Positions 22,901 to 53,480 of a stretch of DNA of 64,000 bases are shown in pieces. Each line of letters opens with the position of its first letter. The stretch's first letter is position 1. Source of the stretch: Tetrahymena thermophila SB210 (taxonomy: Eukaryota; Ciliophora; Oligohymenophorea; Hymenostomatida; Tetrahymenidae); NCBI RefSeq assembly GCF_000189635.1, contig NW_002476030.1, positions 71,165-135,164 on the forward strand. The letters run 5' to 3'. Below the pieces are notes generated by a model, which saw only the letters and a list, made by a program, of their open reading frames with translations, ran no database searches and had not been told where the DNA came from. Both the position numbers and the translations under genes were made by a program.

Positions 22901-23888
22901 TAGCTAATACCAAGTGATACCTGAAAACATGAATGGGGAGAATTCATAAGAAAAAAAAGTGTCTTTCTAAAATTTTTAAGAGTAAATTCCATCCTCTACT
23001 TCATCTTCTGATGAAGAAGGTACTATCTTTTCCAGTATAAAAAAAAAAAATAGTAAAGAAAATATAGATTTAATAAGTCAAAAGAAACCCCTAGAAGAAG
23101 ATTAACAGATTTTAACAATTGACAAATTTAATAATGAAAATCTTTCTTAAAAAAAGAATTCTGTTATTAGTCAAAAAAGAGATTCAAATAATTTTAATTT
23201 AATTTAATCAAAGTCTTTTAATCAATAAATTTCTACTTAAATGAATGAAGTTTCTAATTAATCCATTATTAGTGACTTGAAAAATATTAATATAAATTTA
23301 AATGATAGGCAGAAAATAAATAATAACAAACAGTTAAATTATATAATTAAATCTCGAAGAACTCTTAGAGGAACACAAGATAATAACTTTTTAGAAAATA
23401 TATTGAACTAAATTTCGAATATACCTACTATTTAAGTAGAAGAATAAAAGGAGAAGAATTAGACAATTAATATTGATTTTTAAAGAAAGCTTTCGAAATT
23501 ATCTCAAAGCGCTAATAATAAGAGATTAAGCTTATTAAGTTAATCGTAGTTAGTCTTAAACAATAATCAACATTCTTTTTCTTAATTAGAATAGATTAAT
23601 GAAGCAAACTTATAAAGAATTGGAAAAAGACCAAATGATATAATAGAATCTTCTGATTAAGTGAATTATCAAATGCTTTAAATTTTTGACAAAGCTAAAG
23701 TATTTAAATATTACTTACCTCATTTTAATTACCCTGAGATTGTTTAAAAATGGATCATTTTTTAAACAAAGAGATTGAAAATGACATCAAACTTCGTTGG
23801 AATAGCTTAAAAAAAGAAAAGATTTATGGGCAAAAGAAAATAGAGCAAAAGTTAAAATTATATTTAAACAAGATAAACTGAGGTATGA
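19901..23888 (+). CDS. K+ channel A: 6TM, cNMP-binding domain, zinc knuckle
   Basis: Exons 19901-19972, 20026-21486, 21762-22444 and 22517-23888 give 1195 aa. It is a plasma- or ciliary-membrane potassium channel subunit of the CNG/HCN/EAG superfamily, presumably tetrameric. After a ~150-residue N-terminus come S1-S3, then S4 with lysines every third position (K340, K343, K346, K349), S5 (ICHIFCLFWHGL), the K+ selectivity filter TVGYGD (429-434), S6, and a C-linker with KLRNDLVLEIQGKYL. The cyclic-nucleotide-binding domain (about 565-670) keeps FGE (620-622) and the Arg of NPRTF. Directly after it is a CCHC zinc knuckle, C685-X2-C688-X4-H693-X4-C698. The tail is Q/N/S-rich with an acidic Ser cluster (SSTSSSDEE) and ends in a motif shared with B-D. 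First of four tandem copies. Confidence 0.95.
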
Positions 23889-24506
23889 ATTAAACCAATA
23901 AATAAAGAGAAAATATATTTTATTATGAAAATATTTGAATCTATACCTTAAGCTTACAATTAAAAATAAATTCAAAATAATTATAATTTCATTCAATAAA
24001 GTATATTTATTCACTTTAATTAAAATTATATTTTACAAAAATTTAACTTCTTACTGCCACAAAATGAATGAAAATGATAAATTGAATGTAATTATATATT
24101 TTATACTGTGAGGCCTCTAAATTTATAGATTTATTACAGTTATTGCTTGATATGAAATTTATGTTTTTATTTAATTCATAGAAAATTTTTGTCAAAAATG
24201 CTTAATTTTAATAATTTAACCAATTTATGGTATATTTTCAATCAATTATTTTCATTAGATTCAATAAATAGGAAAGGAACTAATGATTATTTAATAATAT
24301 GAAAAAAATAAGATTGTCATAATATTAATATTTGAATTAGTAATATGCAATTTTATATATATTCTTTTTGTTGTGAAACAACAATAATTTAATAAAATTT
24401 TATAGATAATTAAAAGCATAATTTCAAAAGAGCTTTAAATAAATAGTTAATTAAAAAACAATAAGAAGAAAACCTTTCATTTGATCTTATTAATTAATTA
24501 TAAAAC
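23889..24506. other. Spacer between channels A and B
   Basis: About 0.6 kb of AT-rich DNA holding the 3' region of channel A and the upstream region of channel B. No exon or RNA gene is visible. Confidence 0.6.
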
Positions 24507-27500: not shown

Positions 27501-28626
27501 GAAAAATTAAGTTGAAAATACATAAAAATAAAATATATTTTCAATTGAAAATTTAAATAGCTAAATAGAAAATTAAAAAAGAGGTTTAGGTATTGAGGAA
27601 TCTCAAGATAAAATTCAAAATCAGATTATAAGGTAAAGCAAAAATAATTTAACTTCAATTAATTAAAACGGTAAAGGAAATAAATATGCTGATAAAATTG
27701 CAGAATAATCTATTGAGAGTTAATCTTCTTAATTTAATGAATCTGAGTAATAACCATCTTCTCCCTCTTCTTCTGAAGAAGATAACAATTCTGTCTGTTC
27801 CTTTTAAATTAAAAAACGATAAGCCAGTAAAGATAATATGTAGATAACTAAGGTTATTCAAGGATAAGAAGAAGAATAAAAGTTCATAATTGATGGATAA
27901 ATTAATGAAAATTAAAAAAATAATGCTTATTAATAGCAATAAAGAAATTCAAGCATTTTTTATAAATTAAAAGGTAGCAATTAGTAAATTAACACTTAAA
28001 TGAATGATTGTTAATCTTTAATAAATGATTTGAAAATTAGCAACAATAATGATAAATAAAAGGTTGTTAATAATTTATAAGTTAACAATATAATTTAATC
28101 AAGGAGAACTTTGAGAGGTACAAGGGATACAAACTATTTAGAAAATGTTTTGAAATAAATTTAAAATAGATCTTCTATACAAGTTGATGAATAATCTCAT
28201 ATGAAAAAATTTTCGAATATTAGTATTGATCTCTAAAAACGTCTTTCAAAAATGTCTTAAAAAGGTAGTCAAAAAAATATAACCTTATAAAACCCATAAT
28301 AAATACCATAAAATAATAGTATTTAAAACTCCTTGTCATATTTAGCATTGATCATGGATGATAATATTTAAAAAAATGGTAAAAAAGTGAATGATATAAC
28401 AGAATCTTATGATTAAGTAAATTATCAAATGCTTTAAACCTTTGATAAAGCCAAAATCTTTAAATATTATTTGCCTCACTTTAATTACCCTGAAATTGTT
28501 TAGAAATGGGTGCTATTTTAATCTAAGAGGCAATAAAAAATCTCCAAATCGGTTAATATTGCTAAAAAAAAGAAAAGATACCTAAACAAGATAAAACAGA
28601 AGGATAGCTTTTGCTTAATTAAATGA
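24507..28626 (+). CDS. K+ channel B: 6TM, cNMP-binding domain, zinc knuckle
   Basis: Exons 24507-24578, 24634-26082, 26580-27262 and 27351-28626 give 1159 aa. It is the closest paralogue of channel A: exon 1 has the same length (72 nt), exon 3 has the same length (683 nt), and many stretches of exon 2 are identical, including the Lys-only S4 (KWVKISKVLK), the S5 WHGL and the TVGYGD filter. The cNMP domain keeps FGEISF and NPRTF. The zinc knuckle reads C-STC-KSGNH-FSIDC, with all four ligands present. The tail has an acidic Ser patch (SSPSSSEED) and the DQVNYQML terminal motif. Intron 1 uses the less usual donor GTCAGT. Intron 2 (26083-26579) is 497 nt and contains an internal duplication. Predicted to be a K+-selective channel tuned by voltage and cyclic nucleotides. 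Confidence 0.95.
26168..26390 (+). repeat. Imperfect tandem duplication inside channel B intron 2
   Basis: Two ~100-nt units, about 26168-26264 and 26287-26390, share CAGCTTTAGATTAAATGT, a TTTGCATTTT stretch and a following TATAGCT(G/T)A segment. One related unit is recognisable in channel A intron 2 (about 21567-21660), with GATTAAATGCATTTGCATTT. The channel A and B introns are therefore homologous, and B's has been duplicated internally. Confidence 0.65.
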
Positions 28627-29836
28627 AATGTGATAATTAAAATATAATAAATTTAATTATTATTCATTCATTCACTTTATTTAAAACATGATCAAAAAAT
28701 ATTTATTTCAATTTCTGTGCACATTATTTTTACAAAAATGTTCAATTTTTAAACTAAAACTTAATAAACTGTATTTATTACAAACAAAAATTGATAATTA
28801 ATTATTCTTTCTAAATGTTAGTTTTATTTTTTTTAAACTTCAAATATTTATATTTATTATATTTGTTTATACTAAATATAGATCTTTAATAAATACTGTC
28901 TTTGATAATAAGAAATTAATACATTTTTTACAAATATTTTTTAAAAGTAATTAATTAATTATTTATTATTCCTAAAACATTATAAAATGTATTCTCAAAA
29001 AAAAAATAAAATAAAAAAAACTTTAACTTTGCAATAAATATCATAAGATAAGAAAAAAATATTTAAATAAAAAGATTAGTTTGAAATTAACTAGTTCATC
29101 ACCTTTTTTAATGTTTATTTTTTTCTTAAATTCTACTTTTTTTAATTAAAGAGAAAAATATATTAATTAAGTAAATCAGATATATTTTTTCAAGTATAAG
29201 CAATATTGAAATGTGCTAAATTTTTTTTGTTTTAAAAAAATTACTTTTGTTTGGGGTCATTTGAGTGATTTTTAACTTTATCATTATAGCTACTATCATT
29301 TGGATTTTAAATTTTTATACATTAATTTAGAATGACTATTAAAGTAAGTTTAGTAAATTTTCAAATTAAATTTTATTAGAATTAGGTATCAGTAAGTTTG
29401 TATGTAGTATTTTAAATTAACAAATTTATGATTATAGGTCATAAAATTTCAGACTATTTTTACTTTAGGATTAATTAACCACTTAGTATGCATAATTTTT
29501 AAAATATTGCTTGATATTAAATAAGCAGTAATACAAAATTTAATTAAAAGTACTTGCTGTAAGAGGCAAAATGTAGCATTAAAAACAATAGGGATTATGC
29601 TTTTAATGGCATAATACATTTATATAAATGTTAGAATGTACAATATTTGTGATAAATGACCTTCTTTTAATTAACTTAGCTCTTTGATAAATCAATTTTT
29701 TTTTTTACTTTAAATTATAATAATCTGTTTTCTTGTGTATAGTTTATATACTGAATGTAATATTTATGTTATTAACAATTAATTATTTTTTTAGATTTGT
29801 AATATAAGAAGTGAATAAAATTAAGATAAAAAAATA
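28627..29836. other. Spacer between channels B and C
   Basis: About 1.2 kb, the longest spacer inside the array. It is AT-rich, with a slightly more mixed composition near 29240-29660 but no open exon, splice-consistent frame or RNA fold that I can support. Confidence 0.55.
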
Positions 29837-32800
29837 ATGTCTCAAACAGATTGTAAATTTTACAATGATTAATACAGAAACAGAATCCAACTTTATGAAG
29901 AGGTTTGAATTTTCTTGTAATATTTATTTGACTTATATTAATGTAAATAGGAGAATAAGCTATTTTAAAATATGCCTTATAAATGTGATGACTCCATTGT
30001 AGAATAAGAGCCTATTTCTTAGATCAGTAGATTTGAATAAAATAGGTACGAAGAAATGCAAATGAACACACAGAAGGGAAAAGTTAATTTTTTAGATGAG
30101 GATAATCAAAAAAATGGATAAGATAAATCCAACTAAAAATTAGGAAAAAAATTAGATAATAAGACTTTTTAGACTTAAAGAACTCGCCAACGATCATCAC
30201 CTAATAATATAAATAATATGATTACATAATACTAAGATTAAAGTTTAGCAAATACCATAAACCTAGACGATGATGATGAAGAATAAAAAGCTTAACCTAT
30301 CAAGCTTATTAAAGCTTTAAAACTTTTAGTGAATATTTAGCATTTTTATAGAGTTCTCACAAGTAATGTAAGAGTTTTGAATAAACTAACTCATAAGTAG
30401 CACTAGTTGATTGGAGATATTTCAAGCTTTTACTCAAAATCCTACTAGAAAGATAAGGACAAATATTATTTTATAATAGGAAGACTCTGGGCTAATCTTA
30501 CTTAAAAAATTGAAAATATTTACATTCCTGTATTTCAGCCTTCTAATAAGCTAATAAAAGCATGGGATAGCTTTTTATCGCTATTAATTATGCTATTTAC
30601 TTTGTTATTAAATTTGCAGCTATTTTTTGGAATGAATATTAGTAACTTCTACTTGCTGTATAATGTCTTGATAATTTTTTCTATAATTGATATTATCGTA
30701 GAATTAAATACTGGTGTGGTTCAAAAAGGAAATGTCATTAATGATAGATAGTTTATATTCAAATCTTATTTAAAAAATATATTTATTTTTGACTTATTTG
30801 GAAATTTTTCATTACTTTTATTTATTATTGAATCTGAAAGCTCTGGTTAATTAGAGCTTCTAATTAATATTTTGTTTCTTTTCAAATGGGTAAAAATCAC
30901 TAAAATTTTAAAAGAGGCAACGTATTATTTCAGCTATGAAAAAAATCATAAAAACTTAGTAGATCTCTTAAAACTTCTCTTTTTTGTTATTGGTATTTGC
31001 CACATTTTCTGCCTTTTTTGGCATGGATTAGGCTAATTATCAATTAACAGAGGTGAAACTGATAACTGGATACAAAGCAAAAATTTAGTTGATGCAAACA
31101 CCTTCGAAAGATATATATATTCTTTCTACTTTTTAGCAGTAACTATGGCCACTGTTGGGTATGGTGATATAACTCCTTAAAACGATATGGAAGTATTATT
31201 TACTGCAATCACTATATTTGTCACATGTATAGTATATGCATTTAGCATAAATACAATAGGTAGCATCATAGAAAATATTGAAAAGAAGGATAAAAAATAC
31301 AAAGAAAACCTTCAAATAATACATGGTGTTATGAGAGAAGAAAATGTCTCAAGAGAATTAAAAATAAAAATTTCTAATTACGTCGAATACCTCTACAAAG
31401 TAATTTGCAAATTTCAAAAACAAACAATAAAATTAATTTTGTTCATTTTTAATTTTTTAAGAATAAAATATTTTCTTATAATCTTTACTTACTTATTTCA
31501 TGTGCGTTATTTTTAAAGGATGAATGAAAGGATATTAATTTACTCAAAAGCTATGGATGGATTCATTATAAATCCTTTCAAATTGTGATTTCTTTTTTAT
31601 ATATTGATGGAATTTTAATAATTAAAATTAATGTTATTTTTTAATTTGAACATTCATTATTAAGTTAATTTTTACATTTAAATTAGGAATCTAACGAAAT
31701 TCAAAAGAAATAAGAAAACCTGATTATAAATAAATTATCAGCTAAGTTAAGGAATGATCTTACTTTGGAAATATAGGGAAAATATCTGAATAATATTCCG
31801 TTATTTAAAAATATCAAAGAAAAAGATAAAGTTACAAGTATTATGGAAGAGTAATTGTATTCTCCTGGAGAAATTATATTTAAATAAGAAGAATTGGACG
31901 ATTGTTCTATTTACTATATAGTGAAAGGTTCTGTAGCAATACTTTATCATTAAAGTAATAAAAACAGGGAGGAACTAATTATTGCTATCAAGGGAAAATC
32001 AGAATACTTTGGAGAGCATTCTTTTATTAATGGAAAATCCAGGTCACTTACTGCTAAAGCTACAGATTTTTGTAGAATATACAAAATAAGCAGGTAAGGA
32101 TTTTAATAGGCTATAAAATAATATGAATATGAGTTTGAAAACTTTCAAATGACATAGGAAGCCATTTTATTTAATAATAATTATAAACTATGCTCTTTTA
32201 CTTGCTCTATATGCAATTCTTCAAATCATATACCAATGAACTGTCCAAAAACTCATTTAGTTCTCACTAAATAAGTTGTTATTTCACGCTATAACTAATG
32301 GAATCCTCATTTACAGAGAGAAAAGTTTTATAGAAAATAAAAAAAAACCCATGTTTTAAATCAAATTTAGTAAAATATTTTTTTTTTTAAATAAAATTTT
32401 AACTCTACTTAAAATGGTAGTAAATACTATTTTAAAGGATGAATAAGTAAATTAATTAAAGAGAATTTAATCTTTAAAATTAATTAAAAAAAAGATTACT
32501 TTAATAGGCAGTTGAAGAAATTAATTGCCATGAGTCTTTATTTGATATTTTAGATTAGTTAGAAATAGGACTTGGTATAAGTTATATGCATATAGATTCT
32601 CAATAAGCTTCTTAATCATTAAATTCCTTAACAAAATTGGAAGAGAAAGTTGATCCATAAAAAAAATAAGAGACAAATAATTAAGATAACTCATAAATGA
32701 ATTTTAAGTCTTAAATTTATTATGAATCTGATAGCTCTAATAATATAGATTAATCAAAATAGGCTTCTAACTCAGTTGGATATAATAAAGAAAAAACTTC

Positions 32801-34010
32801 TTCAAGCTTTTTGCAGAAGAATCTAGACTCAAATTTTAGCTAATAATAGAAAACAAAAAGATCGTTTCAGCCTACTTAATAAAGCTTTTAGAATAGTGAA
32901 TCTGAAATAAAATAGAATGATTTTTCTTCATCTTAATCTTTAGATGATTAGACTCTTACTTCTTTTTCAAATAAAGATACATATTCTAGAGATTATGAGC
33001 AATTAAAATAAGTTATGATTTAAATTGAAAATGGATAACGATAATTAGATTATGAACAGAATTCTTTTTAAAAAGGTTAAGATAAATTGTAAGAATAGCA
33101 AAATTAACAAAAAATTATTCCAACCATAAATTATCCAACAAATAATAAATCAACTTAAGAATATAAATAAAAATTAAAATCTAAGTTAGCTTAAGAAACA
33201 GAAACATTTGAAGAAAGAAACCAATTGGATTAGAAGCAACAAATAGAATAACTTTTATCTGAATAAGTAGAATAGCCAAATTTACAAATAATAAGAAGTA
33301 GAAACAGCTTTAAAACTGCTTTAAATTAGCAGAATTAAGAACAAATTAAAGAAAATTAGAATATATAAAATGGTAATAGAAGAGAAAGTATATTTGCTGA
33401 TAATTAGCATAGAGAAAAGCTATTTCCAAGCTAATAAATGTACAATGCTCTAAATTTAAGAGAGAGAAGAAGAAGAAATTAAATTGATGTTGTCCAGAAT
33501 TCAATTTATGCATTTATCAGCCAATAAAGTTAAAAACAAAATTAAGGAAAAAAATTTATAATTGATGAGAACCTTTAAGATTAAAAGCCCAAGAAAAAAT
33601 TTTCAATTAAGAACTTTCAAAATAATATGAACTTAGAGAACTTTTCAAAAAAGCCAAGATCATAGATTGAACAGATTCTAACTAATGAATATGTTTCATC
33701 TCTTTAGAATGCCACTGAAAGAGGTACTTTTCCTGATAAAAAAATGATTAGTGCTTTTGAAGAAAAAATACAAGGAATTTTAGAACCACCTGATCAAGTT
33801 AATTACAGAATGCTTTAAATATTTGATAAAGCTAAAATATTTAAATTTTACCATCCCTCCTATAATTATCTAGAAATTGTTAAAAAATGGATTAAATTTT
33901 AAGAAAAACATTAAAATAAATACGCAAATTTAAGTTAGAAAAGAAGCAGATTTAACAGCAAGTCTAAAAAATTTAATCAAACTAGTATTTGTAAATACTA
34001 TGATATGTGA
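29837..34010 (+). CDS. K+ channel C: 6TM, cNMP-binding domain, zinc knuckle
   Basis: Exons 29837-29902, 29951-31399, 31687-32369 and 32495-34010 give 1237 aa. Intron positions and phases equal those of A, B and D. It is more diverged: exon 1 differs in sequence, and the cNMP-pocket has FGEHS and KSRSL, keeping the Glu and Arg. S4 reads KWVKITKILK, again lysines only. The pore is TVGYGD. The zinc knuckle is C-SIC-NSSNH-IPMNC, with ligands intact. The long Q-rich tail ends in the same PDQVNYRML...FDKAKIFKFY motif as the other copies. The intron-3 acceptor was chosen at AAAAAG 32494, because this restores the LLQQAVEEIN segment that aligns with channel D. Same predicted function as A; ligand and gating behaviour may differ. 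Confidence 0.94.
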
Positions 34011-34464
34011 AATTAAATAATATTTTTGTTATTTTAAAATATTTAAAAAATTATTAAATTTTATTTGTTTGTAGTTTAGAAATTATTTAATTTGTTTGCA
34101 TAAAATATTAATTAATGACAATAATTAATTTGATATAAAAGATATTAAAGACAGACAAATAAATGGCTTAAACTTTTTTTACCAGTAAAATTCAATGCTT
34201 TTATTGTCAATTTTCAATTGACTTTGAAAATATAAAATCAATATGAAATTGAATTATGTTTTCTTATCAATAACTAAATAAATTTATGCATTTCATTTAA
34301 ATGAAGCTTTTATATCATCTTTTAAATAATTTAAAAAACATATTTCAATTTATGTTAGCATTTATTTTTTGTTACTTATTTCAATAAAAGCATTGGTTGA
34401 TTTGTTATTATTTAATTAATATATATAATATTTTTTAAAGAAATTAACTTTAGTAAAAACAAGC
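34011..34464. other. Spacer between channels C and D
   Basis: About 0.45 kb of AT-rich DNA, the shortest spacer in the array, with no visible gene. Confidence 0.6.
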
Positions 34465-37400
34465 ATGGATATAAGCACTTCAAGTTACAATAATAATTAA
34501 ACCTATAGATGTCAAATTCCATTTAGCGAGGAGGTAAGAAAATTGCATTTGTTTATCCCTTAACATAAACTTATTTTTGGTAAAAGGAGCATAGAGTGAT
34601 CTAAAATTTTCCTTTTAAATCCAATGACTCTGAAGTAGAACCAGAGATTTTTTCATAATTTAGTAGAAGGTAATTATCAACAAAGAGAGAATTTAGCAGC
34701 CAGGAGAGAAATCAAAGTGAATTTGAAAAATCTGCTATTATAATCAGTCGTTAAAACTCAAGACGTAGTTTCCAATAAGATACCTCTTAATAGTAAATCA
34801 ATACTCCTGTCAAAAGTCTTTTTCGTGCTGCACTGACTAAAAATATTTCATAATTAATGGATTAAAGTATAATACAATCTGTAAATAACATGGAAGAGAT
34901 GGAATCAAAAGTATTTCCTGTAAAGCTGGTGAGAGTGTTAAAGCTGCTGGTGAATGTTTAGCACTTTTACAGGATGCTAACAAAAAATGCAAGAATATTT
35001 AACAAAATAACTTAAAAATAGCATGATTTAGTCGGAGATGTTGTAAGTGTGTACTCTAAAAATAAAAAAAATGTAGAAGTTCTTGATAAAGGAAAGTTTA
35101 GTAAGTTAATTTTCAATATATTTTATCACTTGACCCTGCTATACTAACTGATCAAAATTCCTTTCTTTGCTCCTTCTGGCTTGTTAATAAGAATATGGGA
35201 CACTTTACTAGCAATCCTCATTTTATTTTCTACTTTTTTATTGAATCTTTAGCTCTTTTTTACGATGTAAATTTAAGAGTTTAAAGTTCTCTTTTAAACT
35301 TTATTCATTTTATCTATCATTGATATTTTAATGGAGCTAAACACAGGTGTCTTAAAGAAAGGGAATATCACCTATAATAGGCAGTTTATTATCAAGTCAT
35401 ATATTAAATCTAATTTAATATTTGACATACTTGGGAATATGCCTTTGTTTGTTTTTGTATTCAATATTGAGGTCACAACTAATTTATAAGTTATGATTAA
35501 TATTTTGTTTATATTCAAATGGACAAAAATATTTAAAATTCTAAGATGGCTTACTTTTTATGTAAGCTATGAAAAAAATAATAAGAATGCATTTGATCTC
35601 TTTCGGCTTCTATTTTTTGTGATTGGAATATGCCATATATTCTGTTTATTTTGGCATGGATTAGGTTTATTTGAAATTAACAACGGATATACAAACAGCT
35701 GGATTGCCAATAAAAATCTTTTGGATGCAGATATTTTTGAAAGGTATGTTTATTCATTCTACTTTTTAGCTGTTACAATGGTAACTGTAGGGTACGGTGA
35801 TATTACTCCTTAAAATTCTATAGAAGTAGTATTTACTACTGTAACAATTTTCGTTACTTGCATAGTTTATGCATTTAGTCTTAATACAATAGGTAGTATT
35901 ATCGAAAACATAGAAAAAAAAGATAAAAAATATAAAGAAAACATGCAGGTTATTCATGGACTTATGAGAGAAGAAAATGTTTCAAGAGATTTAAGAATCA
36001 AAGTATCTAATTATGTAGAATATTTATATAAGGTAAGCTTTTTAAACAATTTTATTTATTCTTATTCTTCTTTTAATTGCTGAAACTAATTTTTCTTTTA
36101 ATGTTTGTTTGTTTTGGGGGAAGGCAGTTTCTATGGAATAAAAATTTCTTTGAAACTTCTAATGTTTATTTTTTATAAATCTCAAAAATGAAATTAAAAA
36201 TTCTTTGAAACTGCATCCCTCGAATGATGTTTTAGTTTTTTGGATTCCCGAATAGCTAGCTAGGAAAGTATTTATTTCTTTAGAAAGAAACATACATATT
36301 TATTTAAAGTTAAGCAATTTTAAAAGTATATTTTGAAAAATTAATGCATTCATGCATCCTTTTGTTCAAAGTTTTACAGTTTATAATTAATTTTCAGAAT
36401 AATTATTTTGGTTTTAAAATTAAGATAAGTTTTTAATTCATTAAAATAAGCTTCTTTTTTTTTATAACTAAAAAAAGGAATCAAATGAAGTTTTAAAGAA
36501 ATAAGAAAAATTAATAATAAATAAATTATCATAAAAACTAAGAAATGATCTAAGCTTAGAAATTTAAGGAAAATACTTAAGTAATATTCCGCTGTTCAAA
36601 AATATTAAAGTAAAAGATAAAATATCAAATCTTATGGAAGAACATTTATATTCTCCTGGAGAAATCATATTTAAGTAAGGTGACTAGGATGATTGCTCTT
36701 TGTTCTATATTGTAAAAGGCAAAGTTTCAATTACTTTTATCTCAGACAGTGAAAATTCTTAGAGGGAAGATTTAATTGTTTCAAGCAAAGGAAAGCATGA
36801 ATATTTTGGAGAAATTTCGTTTATAAGTGGGAATCAAAGAACACTTACAGCTAAAGCGTCAGATTTTTGTAGAATCTATAAAATTAACAGAGATAAATAT
36901 ATTCAAATAATTAAAGAAAATGACCAAGACTTTGAGAATTTTTAAATGATTAAAGAAGCAATCTCTCTAAATAATAACTATAAATTCTGCTCAATATATT
37001 GTTCTATCTGTCAATCAGGAAATCACTTTTCAATTGAGTGTCCTAAAACTCACTTAACTTTAACAAAATAGGTAGTCATATCACGTTATAATAATTGTAC
37101 CCCACATACTGAACGAGCTTAATTTGATAGAAAAAGACAAAAATTTAATACTTATTCTAGATGCATGTAAATATTCTTTTTCTTTCTATTTTATTTATGC
37201 TTAATTTATTAGTTAAACAAACAAAATAATTTTTTTTTAAATAAACGATAAAAAAACATTAACTTATTTATTTATTTGTTTGTTTGCTTGCTTGTTTTGT
37301 TTTTCTTTCTTACTCAAATAAATTTGTTTGGTTCAATTTTATTTATCTCTTCAAATTAGGGTTTTTAATTATCTAATAGAATTAAATTATAACAGCAAGT

Positions 37401-40575: not shown

Positions 40576-42274
40576 ATGGAAGATATAAGAGTAGAAAGTT
40601 AAAATTTGCTACATGAAAAAAATGAAGAGGATTTTATTGAAATGAATATTTTGAAGTAAGGATGTGGATTTGGATTATTAATAAGTGATTTTAATGAAGC
40701 TGATGAATAGTAGTAGGTTGATAGGGATTTTAGTAAACCCTTTTAGGTTGTTAAATACTATAAAAGATATAATAATTTTTTAGGGAAAGTTGAGGATATG
40801 GCTGTAATAAGCTATCCTATGACCGAGATGATACCTGATAATATCCCAAAAGCTTTACTTTAAAAATATACGAATCTAACCAAAAAACATGAAAACCAAA
40901 AAGACTTGAATAATTAAAACAAAGAAAGTATGTACGAAAATAAAGATATTTAATTGGGATTTTCTGAAGAGTAAATAGAAAGTTTAGACGATTTAAATGA
41001 TGATGATAATTGTGAGTGGACATAAGCTTACAAATTTTGCTAAAATTTTGAAAAATTAATTTATTTAAAAGTTGATTTAGAAAGTCAAATTTAGTTTAAC
41101 AAAATTTTGGGTTAGATAAAGTAGAAGCTTTTAATTGTGGATGATAAATATATTGAACCAAGAGGAGAAAATTTTTTGAGATTAAAGCATCTGAGTTAGC
41201 CAGGAATTAATTATATTAAATATAATGGATAATATCTTATTTAATTCCAAGATTTATAATAATTAATGATTACGTTTACCCGCCTATTTATGGATAATTA
41301 CAATCCAAAACTAGATAGAAATTTATTTGAATTGTTTAAAAAAGGTAACTATATTATTCAAAAATCTAAACCTATTTCTGTTTAAAAAATGGACAGTAAA
41401 TTTTTCTAGTAGCGTAAAATGGAAAAATAAATCGAGAGAAAATAATCACTTGAGTAAGAAGAGATTTAGCCTCATAAAAAAAAAATGAGTAGTCGTGAAG
41501 AGGATATTTAGATGCTATAAGATTAAGATGAAGAAGAAGTAGAATAAAATTAATGCGAATAAAAGTCATACAGCAATAACGATATGGAATAATCAATAAA
41601 GAATTATAATTATTTAGATAAATAAATTTTTGTGAAAGATGAAAGCAGTCACAATATCACATAATCAAAAGACACAGCTGAGACTCATCTAAATTAAGAA
41701 AAAGAAAATAAGTAAGCTGAGCATACTGAAAATTTAATTCCCCAATCTTGCTATTCAAATAAGACCCCTTTTTCCATTTAAGAAAAACAAAAAGACGAAA
41801 TAATAAATTAACCAAATGAAAATTGCAAAGGAATTGTTTTGAAGCAGGAACAATAAACTGAAGAAAATGAAAAGTAAAATATTTTTTGCTTTTCTTTTTT
41901 TTATTTTTATATTTTTTATTTAAATATCATGCAATAATTTATTTATTTAATTAATAAAAATTAGTGCTTAGAAAAATGAAAATTGGTAATTCATTCATAA
42001 GAACGATTATTGCAAAAAAATGTTGAAAAATAAATAATTTATTGATAAATTCAAACAAAAATTACAGAATGGTAGCTAATTTCTTAAAATTTTCAGAATT
42101 AATAAATTTAAATCTTTTGAATAATTTTATGAAGATCATCAAAGTTTATATGATTAAATTTATTTAGCTTACCACTCCAAGAATTCCAAATAATAAACTG
42201 ATTTACTTAAAATTAAATATAAAAATAAATTTAAATAACTTTTTCAATAATTATACTCAGAATACAAACCATGA
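40576..42274 (+). CDS. Unrecognised acidic, Q/E-rich protein
   Basis: Exons 40576-41873 and 41965-42274, with a 91-nt phase-2 intron, give 535 aa. No signal peptide or membrane helix is evident. Residues about 120-270 look globular (NCEWTQAYKFCQNFEKLIYL, KILGQIKQKLLIVDDKYIEP, LMITFTRLFMDNYNPKLDRN) and may be the conserved core. Residues about 275-430 are charged and Q/E-rich, probably disordered. The C-terminal exon (about 433-535) is lysine/aromatic-rich (DYCKKMLKNKQFIDKFKQKL) and could be helical. I do not recognise a family. The gene call rests on a continuous 1.6-kb frame under the ciliate code and a clean intron that preserves it. Confidence 0.75.
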
Positions 42275-43381
42275 GCTAAGATATAAAAAAGAAAAAAATA
42301 AATAAATATTTTGATTTTAATTAAAATAAATAATTCAAACAAATTATAATCGTAATCATCTATCTACAAAAACAATTTTAATAAATTATTAAAATAATTA
42401 AAATTTTTAAATCTGAATTAAGAATCTAAAATGTTTATTTTAATACACTTATTCTAAAAATAAATAATAAAAAAACCTTTATAAGCTTAAAGATTTTTTT
42501 AAATATTTGCCTTATTTATTAGTTATTAATTGATTGTCTGCTGATATTCACTAATTATTTCTAAATGTAAACAAAAAATAAGTTAATAGAAATGCTATTT
42601 TTAAAATTGATATGAATACTACAAGATTATTTTAACTAAATATATTAATTAATAATCAAAATCTGTTTATTACTGAAAATTAAAATTACTCTTTTCATTT
42701 ATATATTTATGCATAATTAATTTAAATTTTATTCTTAATAGTTCTTAATTATATTTTTAACTAACTTTATGATATAATTCTTTTTACTTTGTATATTCTA
42801 TGTTTAATTTGTTTGTAAAATGTAGGAGCAAATAAATTTAATTAATTTTAAGTAAAATTTTTAAATTATTTATTTACAAAACTTTTTAATTAAAATTTTT
42901 AATTAATTTTTGAATTAAAATAATTAAGCTATCTATTTATTTTTTTAAATCTTTTCAAGTTAAAATAAATATTTTGAATGAGGGAGGAGTTGAGTCAATA
43001 GATTTTATTGAAATATTTTCATTTAATTATTAATTAACTAATTTTTATTAATTGAATTGAGATTTGTATTTAGTTTTTACAACAATTTATCAAATAAACT
43101 GGCTCAAATATTCATACATAATAAAAAATAATAAACTGAAAAATTTAATTTTTAATTTATTTTTTGATTAATTGAAATAAAATATTGATTGACACTCACA
43201 AAAATAATAAATAAATAAATATTAATCAATTAATTTAATCTTATTTATTGATATAATCAACCTTCCAAAAGATTAAATAAATACTCAGCATTAATATTCA
43301 AAATATATCTAACTAAATATAGAGACAATTTTATAAAAAAGATACCTAATTAAGCTTATAAATCAATAGGTAGCTTGAGAA
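42275..43381. other. AT-rich intergenic region
   Basis: About 1.1 kb of AT-rich DNA. An in-frame TGA at 43376-43378 directly precedes the next gene's ATG. No gene or structured RNA is visible. Confidence 0.6.
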
Positions 43382-46300
43382 ATGAATTAGTAGTAGCTTA
43401 CTTAGACTTTTAATAAGTGCATTCAAAATGAAAATGATCTTTGGCTAAACTTTTATCCCTTTTTGGATAATGTAGAACAAGAGTATTTATTTATTTAGAT
43501 AGATCATAATAATTCTAAAAATGCTAACTAAACATAAATGAATTTTAACGTTTTTTAAATTAATTAAATAATTAGTGTCGTAGTTAAGGTTTTAGTCGAT
43601 AATGTATAGTAAACAATAAAAGATTAAAAGATTAAAGCTGTATAAAAATATTATTCTCTATAGGTAATTTCAAAAATAGCTATCAACATATTGACATATA
43701 ATTTATCTGTTAATTACAATTTATTTTATTAACTAGCTATTAAAATCATGCATCGTTAACAAAAAAGCAAACAAGCTGGCTGAATATACAGCTAAAAAGT
43801 TATTGCCTACCTTAACAGAAATAGCTAAACACAACAAAGGATCTAATGATCCTAAAAGAGGTTAAAACGTTTTTGGAGCTGGTTAAGGTAACTAATCAAT
43901 CAATCAATCAATCAATCAATAATAATAATTTCTAATAATAGCAAATAAATTAACTAAAATTTGAATAAATTTGTAACAAAAATTATTTTTTTTATTTAAC
44001 TAAAAAAGACAAAGATGCTTCAAACGATTTTTTCTTCCTCCTTTTAGAAAGTATTAAAGCGTGGAGTTTAATTTTTGCAAATATTCCTGAATTTTAGAAA
44101 AATTATAATTCTCTTACTAAAGAGGGTGTTATATTTCCTAAGGAAATGATTAACTATTAAATGGAACTTTAAGAATTAGGAATAAATCCTTCAGGCAATT
44201 CTTCTGGCTAAGCTTCTTATAGTAACATGCAAACTCCTTAACAAAATAATAATTAAAGAAGTTAACAAAACCAACAGCAATAATTAGATCCATAAACTCA
44301 AGAATAAGTAAAAAAGTTGTCTAAATTCCTTTCAAATATAGATTAGAATTTAAGAGTTATAGATAATGCTGATCCATAGTATTTAGATTTTTAAAGTAAA
44401 AAGCATAATTAACAAATAATTATCAACATATTTAAAAAATATTATAAATTAAATAAATAGCTCTTGAACAGTGCATAGGACCTTTGCAAAAATAACTAAG
44501 TAAAATTTCAGAGCCATTAATTTTGTAAGTATTATAGATGCCTTAAACTTAAGAAACTGAAAACTTACAAAAAAAAATGTTTGAGGTCAAAGATTTACTA
44601 GAAACTATTATTAAGCAGTATCAAAAAACTGCTGAAAATCCAAAGATATTTCCTCAAATTATTTCAAATATAACTTCACAGATTTCAATTTATTTACAGT
44701 AATTTATTATATTTTTAATATTAAGATATTCAATTTTATTTCAGTTTTAAATTTTTCAATTATAAAAGGATAATATAATTTATTGTTGTTTGCAAACAAA
44801 TTTCAATCGTCGTTTATTATTATTATTAAAAATATTTTTATTTGAGTTATTTAAAAACGAAAGTGAAAGTTAAAACTTTTTGATGAAGTATTATGATATT
44901 CTAATAAATACTCATTATTTTTCTAAGTTCTAACTGAGAAATAGCTTCTCTTAACGTTTTTATCTACTTTAGATTTATTCTAATTATATATTTTATTTAA
45001 AATTAGAAATAATGCTGATAGCACTGGAAGCTAGATAATGCAACAAGCTCCTCCTCTTCAGCAATAATAACAATAACAGTTTTAATAATTTTAATTTGAT
45101 CAACAACCAAAATCAGCGAGTAAATCGAATTTTAATGATTTTAATAACTTTGGATAGGGATAAACATCTTTTTAGTAGAATTAAGATTTTGCTGGTGCTA
45201 ATTAATACGCATTTGATAATTTTAACGCAGCAGCTCCTTCATTCAATTAATAGAATTAACAATAAAAGTAAGGATTTGATGGTTAAAAAGATGTATTTAG
45301 TGAATTTGGTGGATTTTAAGGAACAGATCTTCCTCCATAATCAAATAATACTTTTGACTAATTTGGTGCTGGATTTGGCTAACCTACTACTCAGAATAAA
45401 GGAAATTAAGACATGAGTGGCTTTGGCTTTGGTTTTGGAGAGTAACCAACAAACTAATTTTAAAACTAATAACAACACGATGATGATCATAATGTTCAAA
45501 AATAATAAGCAGCTTTAGATCCTAGTCATTTTGGATTTGATACCTAAGCTAATTAAATGTAATAAAATGCAAATATGGGTTAATTTGGATTTGATGATCA
45601 CTCTTAAAATTAAGGAGCTAATTAATAATATTCAGCTTAACATTTTGGGTTTGAAGAATAAAAATAAAATACAATTAATCAAGCATTTTCTGGCATAGAA
45701 CCTAACCATACTGATAATTTATCAAGAAAAGCGAGTGTTTTTGAAGATAAATCTAATTAAAATACAAGTTATGATTAAAACAAAAACAACCCTTTTAATG
45801 ATCATCATTCTTAAAATTAGCCTTACGGTTTAGAATAAAATAATTTCGGGTTTAATAATCAATTTGAATAATAAAATCAAGCAGCACACCATGAAGGAAA
45901 TGCTGATTTTTTCTAATCTTAACCTGGCAAAAATTAAGTTAGTAACACTGGAGAACAAGATAACCATGATACTTAGTCTTAGAAATCATAAAAAAATCAA
46001 GGCGATCCCAATTAAAATGCGTTTTCAAGTAAAATGAATATAATTTAAGTTAATTTATAGTTTTAATATAAATTAGCTTTATTAAATAAATGTGCTGTAA
46101 GTTCTTTTTAATTATCACCCATTTATATTAACATCAAAATTTTTTTTGGAAAATATTCAAATTATAATCAAAAATAAATAAAAGGGTTGATGAGTGTTAA
46201 TTTTTAAGAATTTATAATATTTAAAATTATCTTAATTAAAAATTATATTTATTTATTTAAATAATAATTTTAATAAATAAGCACAAAATCACGATATGTA

Positions 46301-49300
46301 TTGGGGAGGAGATTATAACAATTATAATGGAAATTAAAGCAATTAAATAGAAAATCATGAAATCAGCCATAGATAGTCTGAAGTGCATAATGAAGGTTAA
46401 GTTGAAACTACTCAATAAATACAACATTTATCCTAAACAGATGTGTAAAATTAATCTATGTCAAACGATTAACATAAAGTAGGATACGATCATAATGATT
46501 ATAACCAATAATAACCGGTTCATACATAGTAAAGCTAGGGATACAATAATAATGACTATGGAGCTTATGGATGGAACGATCATAATCAACAAAATTAATG
46601 GGGTGATCATAATAATAACTATGGAGGTGACACTCACAAAAATAGTTAAAATTTTAATGATGTGAATTAAAGCTACAACTAAGGACACAATAATGTTTAC
46701 AATGATTATGATCATTATGGGTATAATTACAATTAAAATGAATATAATCCATCTGCTGGTTAAATTAATAATACTCAAAATAGTAGAAGACCTAGTTAAA
46801 CAGATTTCAATTAGCATAATTATAGCAGAAAGTAAAGCTAAACTTTTAGTTAAGCAGGAGGATAATAGTAACTTGATGACTAAAAAAAGGATAGCTAAAG
46901 TGTAAAAGATAGTGTTTATAATGCTGGTCTAACAGACTCTCAATATGATATGGTTTTGAATAAAAATAATAGTGCATATCTAAAATGGAAATAAGAATAA
47001 AATTTTTACAACAATCCTATAATCCCAGATAATGATTACCAAAACAAAGACTTTGATTTAAAACCTGTTGAAAAAAATGTTTATGATCCAAATGAAAATT
47101 ATGACATTTCTCCTCCTCCTCATTAACATGAACCTCAAAACGCATCTTATTTAGATATAAATAAAAATGCAGTAAACACCTCTATGAATGCAGCCAATAA
47201 TGCACCTATGAAAACTGAAGATCTGTTTGGTTAAGATTAAGGCAGTCAACGTAGACAACCAAGTCAATAAAGTGATTACAATTGGAATGCAGGTGCATAA
47301 GTAGCAGGAACTGGGGCAGACACAATGAGTAATTAAGGCAGAAGAAAAGACAGTATATAGAGTAATTCTTAAAATAACTAAAATGTTAACTAGAATCCAG
47401 GTTGGAACGACAATCATGGCTTTGACTTTTTTAATGAGCCTGCACCTTAATAAAAATAGCCTAGCAACTCTTAAATTCCTCAAACAGATTTCTTTTAAGG
47501 TTAATTTTTATTATTTTTAAATCTTTAAAATTATTTATTTCATAATAATTTAGATTAAGTAAAAAAGCAAGTTTTTTTTTGTTTGATTTTATGAAGAAGA
47601 GCATTTAATGAATAAAGCAATTTATATTTAAAACTCAAAATTAAATAATTTTTTTAATTAATCAAACACCCTTAATAAAATAGATTAGGTTGTTGATTTA
47701 AAATGATTAATATAAATTTTATTCTTATAAATTAGATAATACAAGTTAACAAGGAAACAATAGCAAGAATTTGAATAATTCAATTCACTAAAGTAACAAT
47801 AATGATTGGGGATAAAATAATTTTGATTAACATTATGACTTTAATTATAACGGTGGATAAACAAATACAAACGCTAGTTAGTAAAAGATGGATTTTCATG
47901 ATCCAGTAGGTTTTGAGCATTAATAATCATAGCATCAAAGCTAATCTAACTAAAATTAACATGATTTATTTGGAAATGATTTTGTGAATCCATCTTAATA
48001 GGTTGTGTAATAATAACCTTAAAATAATGTGTAATAAAATAATCAATTTGATTTTTTCGATGATAATAATTAAAATACCTATTAGCAGTAAGCTGCTCAT
48101 CCAGAAGTAGAATAAAAGCAATGGTTTAATGATATGAAATAGCCACATGTCGAAGATGATTTCTTCAACAACGTTGGTTCTAAATAATAGTCTTAACATA
48201 CTAATTAAAGTGCTGCAGCTGCTGCTGTACCTGCAACTAATACAAACTTTTTTGACGATTTTGGTACAACTCCTACTCCATAATAGTAGCCATAGCAGTA
48301 AACTTAAGTTCATGACAATCAATTTGACTTTGGGGCATTTAATAACTAAAGCTAACCTTAAGCCTAACCAAGTGATTTATCAAATAACTAAGCACAATGG
48401 AACTAGCCAGATGGTTATTATAAATAATATTAAGAGGATCCTAATTAATAGAAGCAAAAACCACCTGGTTAGGTAGACTTGTTTGATATGGCAGATGCTC
48501 CAAATCCATATTAATAGCAACAGCAACAACAATAATAAAATTAGTTTAACTAACATACCTAACAAAGTCAATAATAAGGCTAAGGAGAAGGAGGATTTGA
48601 TTTTTTCGGATTATATAATTAAAATAATACAAACTAAATGATGAATATGTCATAATAATAACAGCAACAATAGGGAGGTTTTGGTTTCAACCAGTAGGGA
48701 TAGTAATTGTATTAGCAATTTTAATAACCTAGAGAATTAGCTTAACCTGGTAAGGCTAGCAATGTTGGTGATATACTGCCAGCTTATTAACTTTTTAACA
48801 AAATGGTGAGAGATGGAATAGTCTAGACAACAAATGAATTTGACAAAGCTAGAATTGGCATGAAAACCTATAAGATTTTAGAAGTTTCTCCTGAAATCAG
48901 AAAAAGAAATGAAGAATTTTATTAGTAATTAAACAGAGAAGAAGCAATTAAAGGTTTTATGGATGAGTAGAAAAAAGAATTATTAAACAAAAAGCTAATA
49001 GAAACAGATGCTGATAAATCTTCTATAATTGATAAAAAGCTAGAAACTTTAAATGTCTTTTAGCTTTTAATTATTGATAGATAAGATTATTTAGACCCTC
49101 TTAGTCAGTTGATTGTTCCAAAGCCAGTACAAACTTTATCAAAAAGCACATTCGATCCATAGTTTTAATCAATTGTTGGTGCAGTAAAATATTTTTTTAA
49201 TCATTTTCATTTTGACATTAAAAAAATTTTTAGGAACAAAAAGAAAACTCTATAAAAGAGATCAAAGAGCTAAATCAGCAGATAATTGTTCTATAAAATG

Positions 49301-51121
49301 TAATTTTTTTAAATATTATTTTCATTCATTTTTATTAATTCTGATAACATAAATTAGTTAAAATATTTACTTTTTAAACAATTTTAATTTTTATGAAGAA
49401 AATAAATAAATTGTTATTTAAGTGAATAAAATAAAATTGATTTCAATTAAAAAATAAGCCAAAATTGAAAACAATCAATTCTTTATAGCTTTAATTTTTA
49501 AATGATATAAAACTGTAAAGAATTCTTTTATTAAATTAAAGAAATTTTGATTTATTTTAACAAAATTTAATATTAAATTTGATAATAAAAGCAAATAGAA
49601 TAAAGAAATATTGATGAGTAAATCTTAACTAAGAGGATCGATGAGTTGTAAAAGGATTTATTTAGTTCAAACAGCAATGTTGAGAAACTTAGAAAAGAAT
49701 TGGAAGGTTTATTATCAGACCATGATAAGATTTTAATTTCAGAGAAAGAAGTTAAGAAAGAAAATGAAAAACTCTTGAAAGAAATTTCGATTTTAAAAGA
49801 AGAATTAATAAAACTTAAAGAAGATAACACAAAAATTTTAAATGAAGCAATCGATCCTGAATATATCAAGAAGTCTTACCTCAATAATTTTTCTCCTATA
49901 AAGAACGGCTCAGATTAAATTGACAGCAAATTAGATTTAGATCCTTAGAGTAAAAAGATTTTAAATACTGTGAGATAAAGGTATAATGAATACCACAGTG
50001 TGTAAATTAGTAGAACTATGAGAGAAGGTTATAAAGTAGTTGAAGAAAAGGTTAATTCCTCTAATTCACTAGAATTTGCTAACAAAGTTACAAATAACTT
50101 AGATAAATTACTTAAATTAAACTATTAATCTTCACCTTATCAAGATGATGCTTTGGTTTAGATGATAGGAAATAAAACAATTAGATAAAAGCAAAAGGAG
50201 AAAAATAAGATTTTCTATAATACAACTTAATTTAAAGAGTTAGTTGATTTACCAATTTATTAAAAGGATAGAGAAAATTTAGATAATTTTAAATATTCCT
50301 GTCTAAATTCAAAAGCAATTCTATATGAAAATACTTTCTTGTAGATAGGTTCCATAACTTAATTTGAGGAAAATAAAGTTTCTAGACAAAATCTCACTTT
50401 GAGCCTCCACTTTATTAATAAAACATAGAACGCTGTTCAATTTACATTCAACTTCGCCACTAATTACAGTAAATATTTCTATCTAAGTTTATAAATTTTC
50501 ATCCTATTTTTTAAAATTAAGAAATGCTAAAACCAGGCTGTGAAGTTAAAGATCCAGTAACTATAAAAGGTAAATCTTAAAAGAAGCATACAGTAGAAGC
50601 TTAAGAGTTTGATATAAAATAATCAATCCCTCTTGTTGATATAAATATTGTGTAAATTAATTTATTAAATAAAGAAATGAAAATATATACTCAAAACTAT
50701 TTTTAAAAATAATTTGTAAAGAATTGACTAAGGCAATGCAGAAGCAAGAATAGCAATTCCAATAGCTTTAAATAAATTTATGATTTTCTAGCCTATTGAT
50801 TAAATGTAGTTCAGATAAAAGTGGCTCAACTTCAAAACCTCATATATTTATAATGAACCTAGGGAAATAAATGAAAGGTTCATAAAAAATCTTAGTGATA
50901 TCAAAAGGTATTTTGAATGCATGATTGAATTAAATAATAGATAAAGACCTCTTCGTTCAAGATATGGAGTTTCCTTTAGAATTAATGGGGTAGGATAATT
51001 TTTGATGAAAATATGTCTTGTCAACAATTCTAAACTAACATTCAAAATAGCCACATATGATTAATATAAAGATGTTGCAGAATACTTGTGTAACTATCTT
51101 TGTTTTATCTTCACAATCTGA
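43382..51121 (+). CDS. Giant VHS/GAT-like clathrin adaptor with alpha-adaptin-type appendage
   Basis: Eleven exons: 43382-43663, 43737-43887, 44009-44499, 44538-44698, 45007-46028, 46282-47499, 47736-49183, 49234-49299, 49592-50468, 50522-50651 and 50722-51121. They give about 2081 aa with all phases consistent. Residues 1-190 resemble a VHS domain (AVQKYYSLQLLKSCIVNKKA; IKAWSLIFANIPEFQ; LTKEGVIFP), followed by a GAT-like helical stretch (about 225-365). About 1000 residues of Q/N/F/G-rich hinge carry DFF, DLF, NPF and an FFDDF (FxDxF) motif at 48248-48262. Coiled coil lies at about 1614-1700. The C-terminal ~235 residues read like the AP-2 alpha appendage (ILYENTFLQIG; IPIALNKFMIFQPI; FRQKWLNF). 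Likely role: cytosolic sorting adaptor in clathrin-mediated traffic. Whether one transcript spans all exons is inferred from the absence of TGA between the blocks. Confidence 0.8.
43894..43921 (+). repeat. (AATC)n tetranucleotide repeat in intron
   Basis: About seven AATC units lie just inside the 5' end of the second intron of the adaptor gene, followed by AATAAT repeats. This is a simple microsatellite with no coding content. Confidence 0.9.
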
Positions 51122-51754
51122 GATAGTACTTTAATTTTTATAATAAATATATTTAACCTTCTTTTTGTATCAACTAATATCCATCAATCCATGTATTCAT
51201 AATTTAATATTTTATTTTTGTGCTTTCTATTAAAAAAATTAATTGTTTACATAAATATTTATTTTATTAAGGATTTCTTAATTATATTTTTAATCATTAT
51301 TTAATAATACAATGTATTTTATTAAGTTTTTATTTTATTAAAATATTTTCATATACTAATTTTTATTATCTTTTTTTAAATTTATTTAATTTATTTATTA
51401 AAAAACATATTTTAATATTTGAGAATATTATAATATATAATAAATACAATTAAATAATATAGTAAGATTTTGAAAAGAAATAAATTCAAAAGTAAATAAA
51501 TTTCTATGAATTGAAATATATTTCAGTTAAAATAAAAATTATTAATAATTTGAATTATAATAATTAATTAATTATCAAATATTACTTCAAGAAAATAAAT
51601 AAACAATTTCGTTTTTATCGCTCAAAAATTAATTAATTAATTAGTATATTCTCTTCGCTTTTTGATTTATATCCAATTTAATACAAAATACTTATAAACT
51701 ATCATAAACCTAATAGCTAGTAGTACTTAAATAGCAAAAAAAATTCTTTTAAAG
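51122..51754. other. AT-rich intergenic region
   Basis: About 0.6 kb of A/T-rich spacer containing short ATTA/TTAA repeats. No gene is visible. Confidence 0.6.
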
Positions 51755-53480
51755 ATGAATTACCAAGCTCATGCAAAGGGTGGGAATCAATAAATACACT
51801 CACCTCGCTACCAGTAATAGTTAACACAGAAAAAATAACCAGAATATATTCAATGGAGCATTGAAACTGCAAAAAATGAGCATATTAATCAAAATGCAAA
51901 GGTCTTGCCTGCTACTCCAAAGAAGGAAAACTCTAAAAAAAGGATTGAACAAAGATCTTAAAGCTAACAACCCTAGAGATTGTCATTATAAAAAGAAAAT
52001 TAGATTAACAATGCACAGATATTAAGTCCAAGTTAATTAAATAGTGCCTTATCATTGAGATCACCATAGTCTTAAGTATCTACCTATCATCAATCACTAC
52101 CTTCAAATGTAGAAATTATTATTTAGATTGAAATCATTCATTAGGGTTTTTAAGATGAAATTTATTTTAAGAATTTAAATTGATTTTTTTTAATTTAGCA
52201 AAAAAAGAGCAGCAGCTTACAGAGAAATCACTACTAAGAGAAAATGGAAAAGGAATACTAACAAAAAAATTATGATAATGTAAAGAAATATTTAGATTTA
52301 GCGAAAATAAATAGAAGAGTTACTGCCAAGTAAAATTTTATTAACTTTTAAATTTAATTAATTTTTGTTTCTTTATTTGATTATTCATCAAGAAATGAAT
52401 GCATGAAGATTTAGTGGATGATATTTAATTATATTTAATCAAATTTATAATGTTATTTTTTATTTTCGCTATAACTAGTGATGTGAAAAAACTTGCTGCA
52501 AACCCTCTTTCAGGCATTAATACAAATTTAAAGCAAGCATTAACAATGGAAGGAGTCTACAAAAGAATTATTAAGTAATATAATAAATAAATAATCTATA
52601 AATATAATGAATCTAATTTATTTATTTATTTTCAAATGATTTGCAGAGAAACAGAATTCAAGTATTATGATCATACCTCTTAAATTAATCTACCGATCAG
52701 TGTAATTTATTGTTTTAATAAATTTGTCTTTTCTTTAATTTTTTGAATTCTTTTTTCATTTAAATTAATTTATTGTTCCAGTGTGCTAGAGAAGAAGAAC
52801 ATCCCCATGAAATCTTAAAATAAATTACTCCTACTACACGCTCTATGAATAATGGAAATCATGCCAGTCAGATGAAGCATTACTTAGATGATGCATCACA
52901 GATAATTAATTTACCAGGCAGTATCCAAAGAGTAGTACCTAATGTAAAACTTATTAATGATATGTCAATATTCTTCATATTCATATATAGCTAATTGTTA
53001 CATTTATTTTAATTAATTTGTAATGAAAAATAAATATTTATTATTCATGGGAAGGAAATAACTATTTAAAATAATAGAAAAATAACTTTATTTATTTATT
53101 AATTAATATAAAGAGTGCGACTTCAAGGGATAAATAAGTAGATAGATTTTTGTTGCCTTCTGCTTTGTCAGATGAAATTGCAAAAGCTAATCCAAACATA
53201 AGATATATAGTAATTTAAGAGAAAGGATTGATTAAATATTTATTAAAAATGTTAATTCATAAAAGTATGAAGAACGTGGTAAAAAACAGTTTGAAGGATA
53301 CAAAAACAATAACTAATTCCATGTCTCAGTTTAATACTTAGTAATTATTTATTTAATTAATTAAAAAAATAAATTATTTCAATTATTTAATAATATATAT
53401 AGCCTTCCTATCCTGTGAATGAAAAACAGCCAAATTACTTAGCTTATAAAAAAAATGCTTCTACTTTGAGGATATTTTGA
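51755..53480 (+). CDS. Unrecognised eight-exon protein, possibly cytoskeletal
   Basis: Exons 51755-52108, 52199-52329, 52479-52574, 52647-52701, 52782-52943, 53114-53209, 53266-53340 and 53403-53480 give 348 aa, all with GTRA-type or GTGY donors and AG acceptors in matching phases. The N-terminal third is Q/S/P-rich and basic (SPRYQQQLTQKKQPEYIQW). The remainder looks ordered and hydrophilic, with KKLAANPLSGINTNLKQAL, EEHPHEILKQITPTTRSM and RVVPNSATSRDKQVDRFLLP. There is no membrane helix or signal peptide. Extended, proline-punctuated, motif-poor proteins with many small exons are common among ciliary microtubule-associated proteins, so such a role is possible, but I recognise no family. Splice consistency across seven introns is the main support. 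Confidence 0.75.

Follow-up and report, generated by a model that had tools for sequence, protein, structure and literature searches.

Neighboring Modules in One Probable Adaptor Gene

What kind of adaptor begins like a cargo sorter and ends like a subunit of the AP-2 endocytic complex? This question is raised by a gene on the forward strand of a 64,000-nucleotide stretch of Tetrahymena thermophila SB210 DNA (contig NW_002476030.1, positions 71,165 to 135,164; hereafter, the window). The gene, at window positions 43382..51121, has a single open frame that ends in an AP-2 alpha-type ear, contains a long hinge enriched in short motifs and has no detectable adaptin trunk. Its front end is a probable VHS domain, perhaps followed by a GAT domain. 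The product is likely, in our view, to be a KAE/KIC4 adaptor of a ciliate, acting beside AP-2 in the manner proposed below. The features of the gene are as follows (window coordinates).

43382..51121, plus strand: whole gene, 11 exons, from hand-read splice sites in one open frame under genetic code 6; 2087 residues
43382-43663, 43737-43887, 44009-44499, 44538-44698, 45007-46028, 46282-47499, plus strand: exons 1-6
47736-49183, 49234-49299, 49592-50486, 50522-50651, 50722-51121, plus strand: exons 7-11
43382..44151, plus strand: probable VHS domain, residues ~1-192 (small VHS profile and hhalign; best-supported part, the C-terminal end, residues 156-189)
44290..44648, plus strand: possible GAT-like helices, residues ~239-345 (weak two-row profile; position after the VHS as in KIC4)
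45008..48790, plus strand: Gln/Asn-rich hinge, residues 363-1460 (composition; motif counts against 1000 shuffles)
48791..50275, plus strand: charged linker between hinge and ear, residues 1461-1841 (exons 7-9; frame continuous over introns 7 and 8; coiled-coil-like by eye)
50276..50749, plus strand: first (sandwich) lobe of the ear, residues 1842-1964 (phmmer and family profile)
50750..51118, plus strand: second (platform) lobe of the ear, residues 1965-2087 (family profile; alignment; FxxxW site formed by F1985 and W1989)
50822..50824, plus strand: TGG codon of W1989, the residue opposite the FFQRW Trp in the alignment with AP-2 alpha

The Ear Is Bilobed and of the AP-2 Alpha Type

Comparison of residues 1842-2087 with the PDB (phmmer, expectation value [E] up to 10) returned seven matches, all of them AP-2 alpha appendages, the best with an E of 4e-4. 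A profile of the first lobe (A5), built from 10 of the 11 members of the ear family described below (all except C134), matched seven AP-2 alpha sequences in the PDB, reaching an E of 1.2e-7, with the next match at 0.33 and GGA ears at 0.36 and 0.89. The corresponding platform profile (A4), from 9 of the 11 members (without C9 and C178), matched AP-2 alpha at an E of 1.3e-3 over its first 33 positions, with the next match at 0.45. Sequence comparison thus confirms the original prediction of a bilobed AP-2 alpha-type ear as opposed to a GAE ear. The two signatures on which that prediction drew are both real and fall one in each lobe, ILYENTFLQIG in the first and IPIALNKFM...FRQKW in the platform. 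In the platform alignment, the Phe of the FxxxW site is present in all nine rows and the Trp in eight. The Trp of FFQRW with which W1989 aligns is W840 in mouse alpha-C numbering; the mouse platform residues that grip FxDxF include F836, F837, and W840, and the window ear matches F836 and W840. No Adaptin_N match was found on the contig that carries the gene (C391), and no adaptin trunk appeared in a Pfam scan of the whole protein (E up to 1).

The Gene Model and the Coding Frame

The window is AT-rich, with a guanine-cytosine (GC) content of 17-28% per 2 kilobases (kb). No standard-code open reading frame (ORF) of 150 codons is listed for 41000-53000, and the long frames in that region appear under code 6, in which TAA and TAG encode Gln. 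The model starts with the ATG at 43382 and stops with the TGA at 51119-51121, precisely the ends first predicted, and its 2087 residues come near the 2081 first proposed. The terminal TGA is the sole one of the spliced 2087-codon frame, compared with 27 and 108 in the other two exon frames and a mean of 39.5 in shuffled coding sequence. All 10 introns are GT-AG, with lengths of 35-308 bases and a GC content of 0.141, compared with 0.277 in the exons, and the phases agree at all ten exon junctions as modeled. Intron 9 has only 35 bases, and one more intron is possible inside exon 1. The continuous frame, free of internal TGA, supports a single gene and transcript and, at the level of the frame, the earlier proposal that the two ends lie in one chain.

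The VHS-Like Front End

A VHS profile was made from five PDB VHS chains (HRS, TOM1, STAM) and two VHS proteins of the same genome. With this profile, residues 1-207 gave a whole-sequence score of 16.7 bits, higher than all 5000 shuffles (best, 13.6) and all 542 ORFs (best, 14.5). The margin was narrower with a six-row profile (14.9 compared with 13.8 for the best shuffle), and three exon-1 splice variants scored similarly. In addition, hhalign aligned residues 156-189 with the C-terminal end of VHS with a probability of 71 and a score of 35.9, while 300 shuffles reached at most 3.7 and 21.5, respectively. Pfam hmmscan gave no VHS, GAT, or ear in a short piece or in any of the three splice variants of exon 1, and phmmer of residues 1-362 against the PDB gave a single match, to an unrelated protein, at an E of 5.3. 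For the GAT, 10 of 5000 shuffles reached the score of the window protein with the two-row profile, and neither the hand-joined C309 nor GAT pieces of C91, two VHS proteins of the genome, had a GAT match in the PDB. These data support, without proving, a divergent VHS at the N terminus and are suggestive of a GAT after it.

The Hinge Is Enriched in Short Motifs

As predicted, the hinge is about a thousand residues long (1098 residues; Gln 21%, Asn 15%), and because of this composition it is probably disordered. Several short motifs exceed their shuffle expectation in the hinge: DxF (14 observed, 5.7 expected), DFF (6 and 0.38), DLF/DLL (3 and 0.15), and FGF (7 and 0.33), with [DE]FF and FxxF also above chance. 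NPF and FxDxF occur once each, at chance level, and no canonical clathrin box, DPF/DPW, or WxxF was found in the 1098 residues. A hinge-like 700-residue stretch of the paralogue C134 is enriched in FDF and GF[GD], and 269 residues of C209 are enriched in GF[GD]; in neither are DFF and FGF enriched. Within the linker that follows the hinge, a heptad test of residues 1592-1700 was not significant, with 106 of 1000 shuffles scoring as high.

Comparison with Known Adaptors

The predicted order of VHS, GAT, hinge, and ear is borne out in its hinge, its ear, and its VHS-like front, with the GAT suggestive. This order is shared with the GGA proteins. However, the GGA ear is a single-lobed GAE, whereas the window ear has a second lobe, and because it is bilobed and alpha-type, membership in the GGA family was rejected. 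The bilobed appendage is shared with AP-2 alpha, but the adaptin trunk that characterizes this subunit was not detected in the window protein, which was therefore not assigned to it. VHS and GAT are modules of ESCRT-0/TOM1, and a VHS, perhaps with a GAT, likewise stands at the front of the window protein; TOM1 is not known to have an ear, and assignment to a VHS-GAT class without an ear was rejected given the ear of the window protein.

Closer likeness is found in apicomplexan proteins, which we compare here as they are described in passages of the cited papers. Plasmodium falciparum KIC4, a protein of the K13 compartment, is described as combining a VHS and a GAT with a bilobed adaptin ear, the part in between having no detectable fold. 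Its authors regard it as a hybrid between GGA and the beta subunit of an AP complex, with a layout unseen in any other protein (PMC10718435). Because KIC4 has the same plan, the claim of the original prediction that the architecture lacked a described counterpart does not hold. By published description, KIC4 and the window protein are alike in their foldless stretch, bilobed ear, and absence of a named trunk, and the probable VHS of the window protein would correspond to the VHS of KIC4. They differ in the second lobe, which is of beta-adaptin type according to the KIC4 authors and which in the window protein matches AP-2 alpha and no beta, and in the GAT, which is reported in KIC4 and suggestive here. 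Toxoplasma gondii KAE (TGME49_272600) is described as the KIC4 homologue (PMC10718435). Like the window protein, it is large and ends in a conserved AP-2 alpha-type ear without similarity to the AP-2 trunk; it is located at the micropore / plasma membrane and binds Eps15L via WxxF (PMC10105704). The word VHS is absent from the main text of that paper, whereas the window protein has a probable VHS. KIC5, a second alpha-type ear protein in which an adaptin trunk is undetectable, resembles the window protein in this respect but differs in that the passages of PMC10718435 report no VHS-GAT for it.

The same genome also contains a separate gene with an adaptin trunk and both ear lobes kept (C86, ~173.6-177.6 kb; L022, L054), which we take as AP-2 alpha because its trunk (read by eye) and its ear match. 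In contrast, the AP-2 alpha ear of Toxoplasma is described as degenerate while KAE carries the conserved one, the split being stated for all alveolates; the same paper reports that K13, present in Toxoplasma, appears to be missing from ciliates (PMC10105704). The two VHS proteins noted above (L001, L056, L002) are separate genes as well: C91 has Pfam VHS and GAT matches, and the VHS of C309 matches HRS and TOM1. A survey of the VHS superfamily that includes T. thermophila describes no VHS-ear fusion in the passages available (PMC3473312).

A Family of Trunkless Ears in the Same Genome

Searches of the assembly (445 contigs, 101,022,631 bases) with the window ear as query found, besides the gene itself, C188, C134, C114, C160, C13, and C178, at E values of 8.7e-6 to 0.0115. 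A Pfam ear search added C214, under its cut-off; its other two matches, C172 and C329, share their contigs with Adaptin_N genes. A search with the C114 ear added C9, C209, and C184. Alpha-type ears in which no adaptin trunk was detected would thus number at least 11 loci, window gene included, a finding new within these searches; the count is a lower bound because only the best candidates were scored. The ten other loci are listed here.

Trunkless ear loci: C134 (L007/L048/L052), C214 (L053), C188 (L006), C114 (L008), C160 (L009)
Trunkless ear loci, continued: C13 (L011), C178 (L012), C9 (L064), C209 (L068), C184 (L070)

In nine of these ten, a first-lobe piece followed by a platform piece could be read, the start of the C9 platform being unplaced. 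In C134 the first lobe is diverged and the platform clear, and its ear pieces gave no AP-2 match in the PDB. Among the best candidates of the genome search for Adaptin_N, none of 34 matches fell on a trunkless-ear contig. The front ends that were seen vary: C134 has a long Gln/Asn-rich stretch and then a charged one, with no VHS seen upstream, those of C214 and C178 are long, charged, and coiled-coil-like by eye, and that of C209 is GF[GD]-rich. We place the window gene in this family because of the forward ear search and the common match to AP-2 alpha. A PF02296 search of the genome gave no match and is uninformative, because its controls were unmatched as well. In the literature searched, no account was found of a genome in which trunkless alpha ears had multiplied to 11 or more.

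Proposed Function and Alternative Explanations

In the mechanism that we propose, the N-terminal VHS, perhaps with a GAT, would bind membrane-bound partners as well as ubiquitin or sorted cargo, and the hinge of ~1100 residues would form a flexible link on which acidic-phenylalanine and FGF motifs are presented. The ear would use the same two-lobed surface as AP-2 alpha to recruit accessory proteins of endocytosis. The adaptor would act beside the AP-2 complex, not within it, probably at cortical clathrin pits, the parasomal sacs, which in Tetrahymena are clathrin- and dynamin-dependent entry sites (PMC2954822). For the window protein, we infer the GAT, the ligand of the VHS, the partners of the ear, and the site in the cell. 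The role first suggested for the protein, in which cargo sorting is joined to accessory-protein recruitment, appears to fit the KAE data.

Several observations weigh against this assignment. The link to KAE/KIC4 was drawn from published descriptions, and after truncation or knock-sideways of KIC4 the assays used showed no defect in growth or endocytosis (passages of PMC10718435). Pfam gave no VHS or GAT in four pieces of the window protein (E up to 10) or in the whole protein (E up to 1), and no ear at the same thresholds; genome-wide searches with PF00790, PF03127, and PF02883 did not list the locus. The predicted VHS stands on its whole-sequence score and hhalign probability, while Pfam is silent and its best single-stretch score (11.2) is exceeded in the controls (12.8), where one ORF and at least three shuffles were higher. 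When rows were taken singly, Pfam Alpha_adaptinC2 was matched by 6 of the 10 in the first-lobe set, the window row not among them, and none of the nine platform rows matches an adaptin family in Pfam. In the window ear, F837 is replaced by Arg and, by hand reading, two distal Arg of the FxDxF-gripping mouse platform residues are lost. An Eps15-like partner was not found: the EH-domain genome search had a sole match, which on inspection by eye looks like an EF-hand protein. As to the family, "trunkless" means that many kb upstream were read for the window gene and C134, and for the other nine loci that the contig has no Adaptin_N match and ~1.5-2 kb of flank were covered. Four paralogue-ear queries found some of one another and never the window gene, and C184 belongs by two lobes in order at E values of 0.008 and 0.010. 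Finally, in a tree of 12 ears, including 10 of the 11 trunkless rows (C9 left out), the ten trunkless ears lie on one side relative to AP-2 alpha on a weak branch (76/90).

That branch also counts in favor of a rival history, in which ciliates brought a VHS-like front and an alpha ear together on their own; the resemblance to KIC4 would then be convergent and the expanded ear family ciliate-only. Consistent with such a history, the at least 11 trunkless loci have unlike front ends where these were seen, and a VHS-GAT query of the genome finds the window gene as its sole match. A single ancestral founder is the simpler history, however, and we regard convergence as unlikely. Somewhat less probable still is a TOM1/ESCRT-0-like sorter that works mainly on endosomes through its VHS-GAT, with the ear merely docking AP complexes. 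The modules at the front are those of ESCRT-0/TOM1, and the VHS profile that matches was made largely from such chains, but the genome already holds separate VHS proteins in C91 and C309, and the KAE homologue sits at the plasma membrane (passages of PMC10105704).

It is also conceivable that two adjoining genes, one for VHS-GAT-hinge and one for hinge-ear, have been taken as one. The gene model was drawn from DNA alone, introns 4-6 and 8 are long (236-308 bases) and AT-rich, and the paralogue C134 seems to begin at the hinge. Such an artefact is nonetheless very improbable, because the phases agree at the ten junctions as modeled and the 2087 codons contain no internal TGA; KIC4, moreover, holds both ends in one chain (PMC10718435, in the passages describing it). 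Thus, we favor a KAE/KIC4-type adaptor that would act beside AP-2.

Other Genes in the Window

Elsewhere, the window contains a tandem channel array at 21195-36083, in which a cyclic-nucleotide-binding ORF (21195-23885) is followed by ion-channel ORFs at 24151-26154, 29909-31585, and 34401-36080. A leucine-rich-repeat protein is encoded at 5946-8618.

Implications for Alveolate Endocytosis

Three observations are new within our searches: the evidence for a VHS in an ear protein of a ciliate, the presence alongside it of an AP-2 alpha whose ear is intact, and the at least 11 trunkless ears. One possible reading, which we put forward tentatively and hold at somewhat less than even, is that VHS-GAT was already fused with an AP-2 alpha ear in the ancestor of alveolates and that ciliates then multiplied the trunkless ear to at least 11 copies with varied fronts. 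The copies would divide the labor of an ear hub: each would link AP-2-type accessory proteins to its own site at the cortex or on vesicles, with AP-2 alpha keeping its own ear. KIC4 and KAE belong to the K13 compartment, which is linked to artemisinin susceptibility (passages of PMC10718435 and PMC10105704). If the reading is true, a ciliate member with a discernible VHS would put the origin of the hybrid adaptor in the ancestor of the alveolates, earlier than K13 or independent of it, and would place a KIC4/KAE-type adaptor in a free-living, genetically tractable cell. It would also raise the question of why a hub best known from AP-2 alpha should exist in so many copies in one ciliate.

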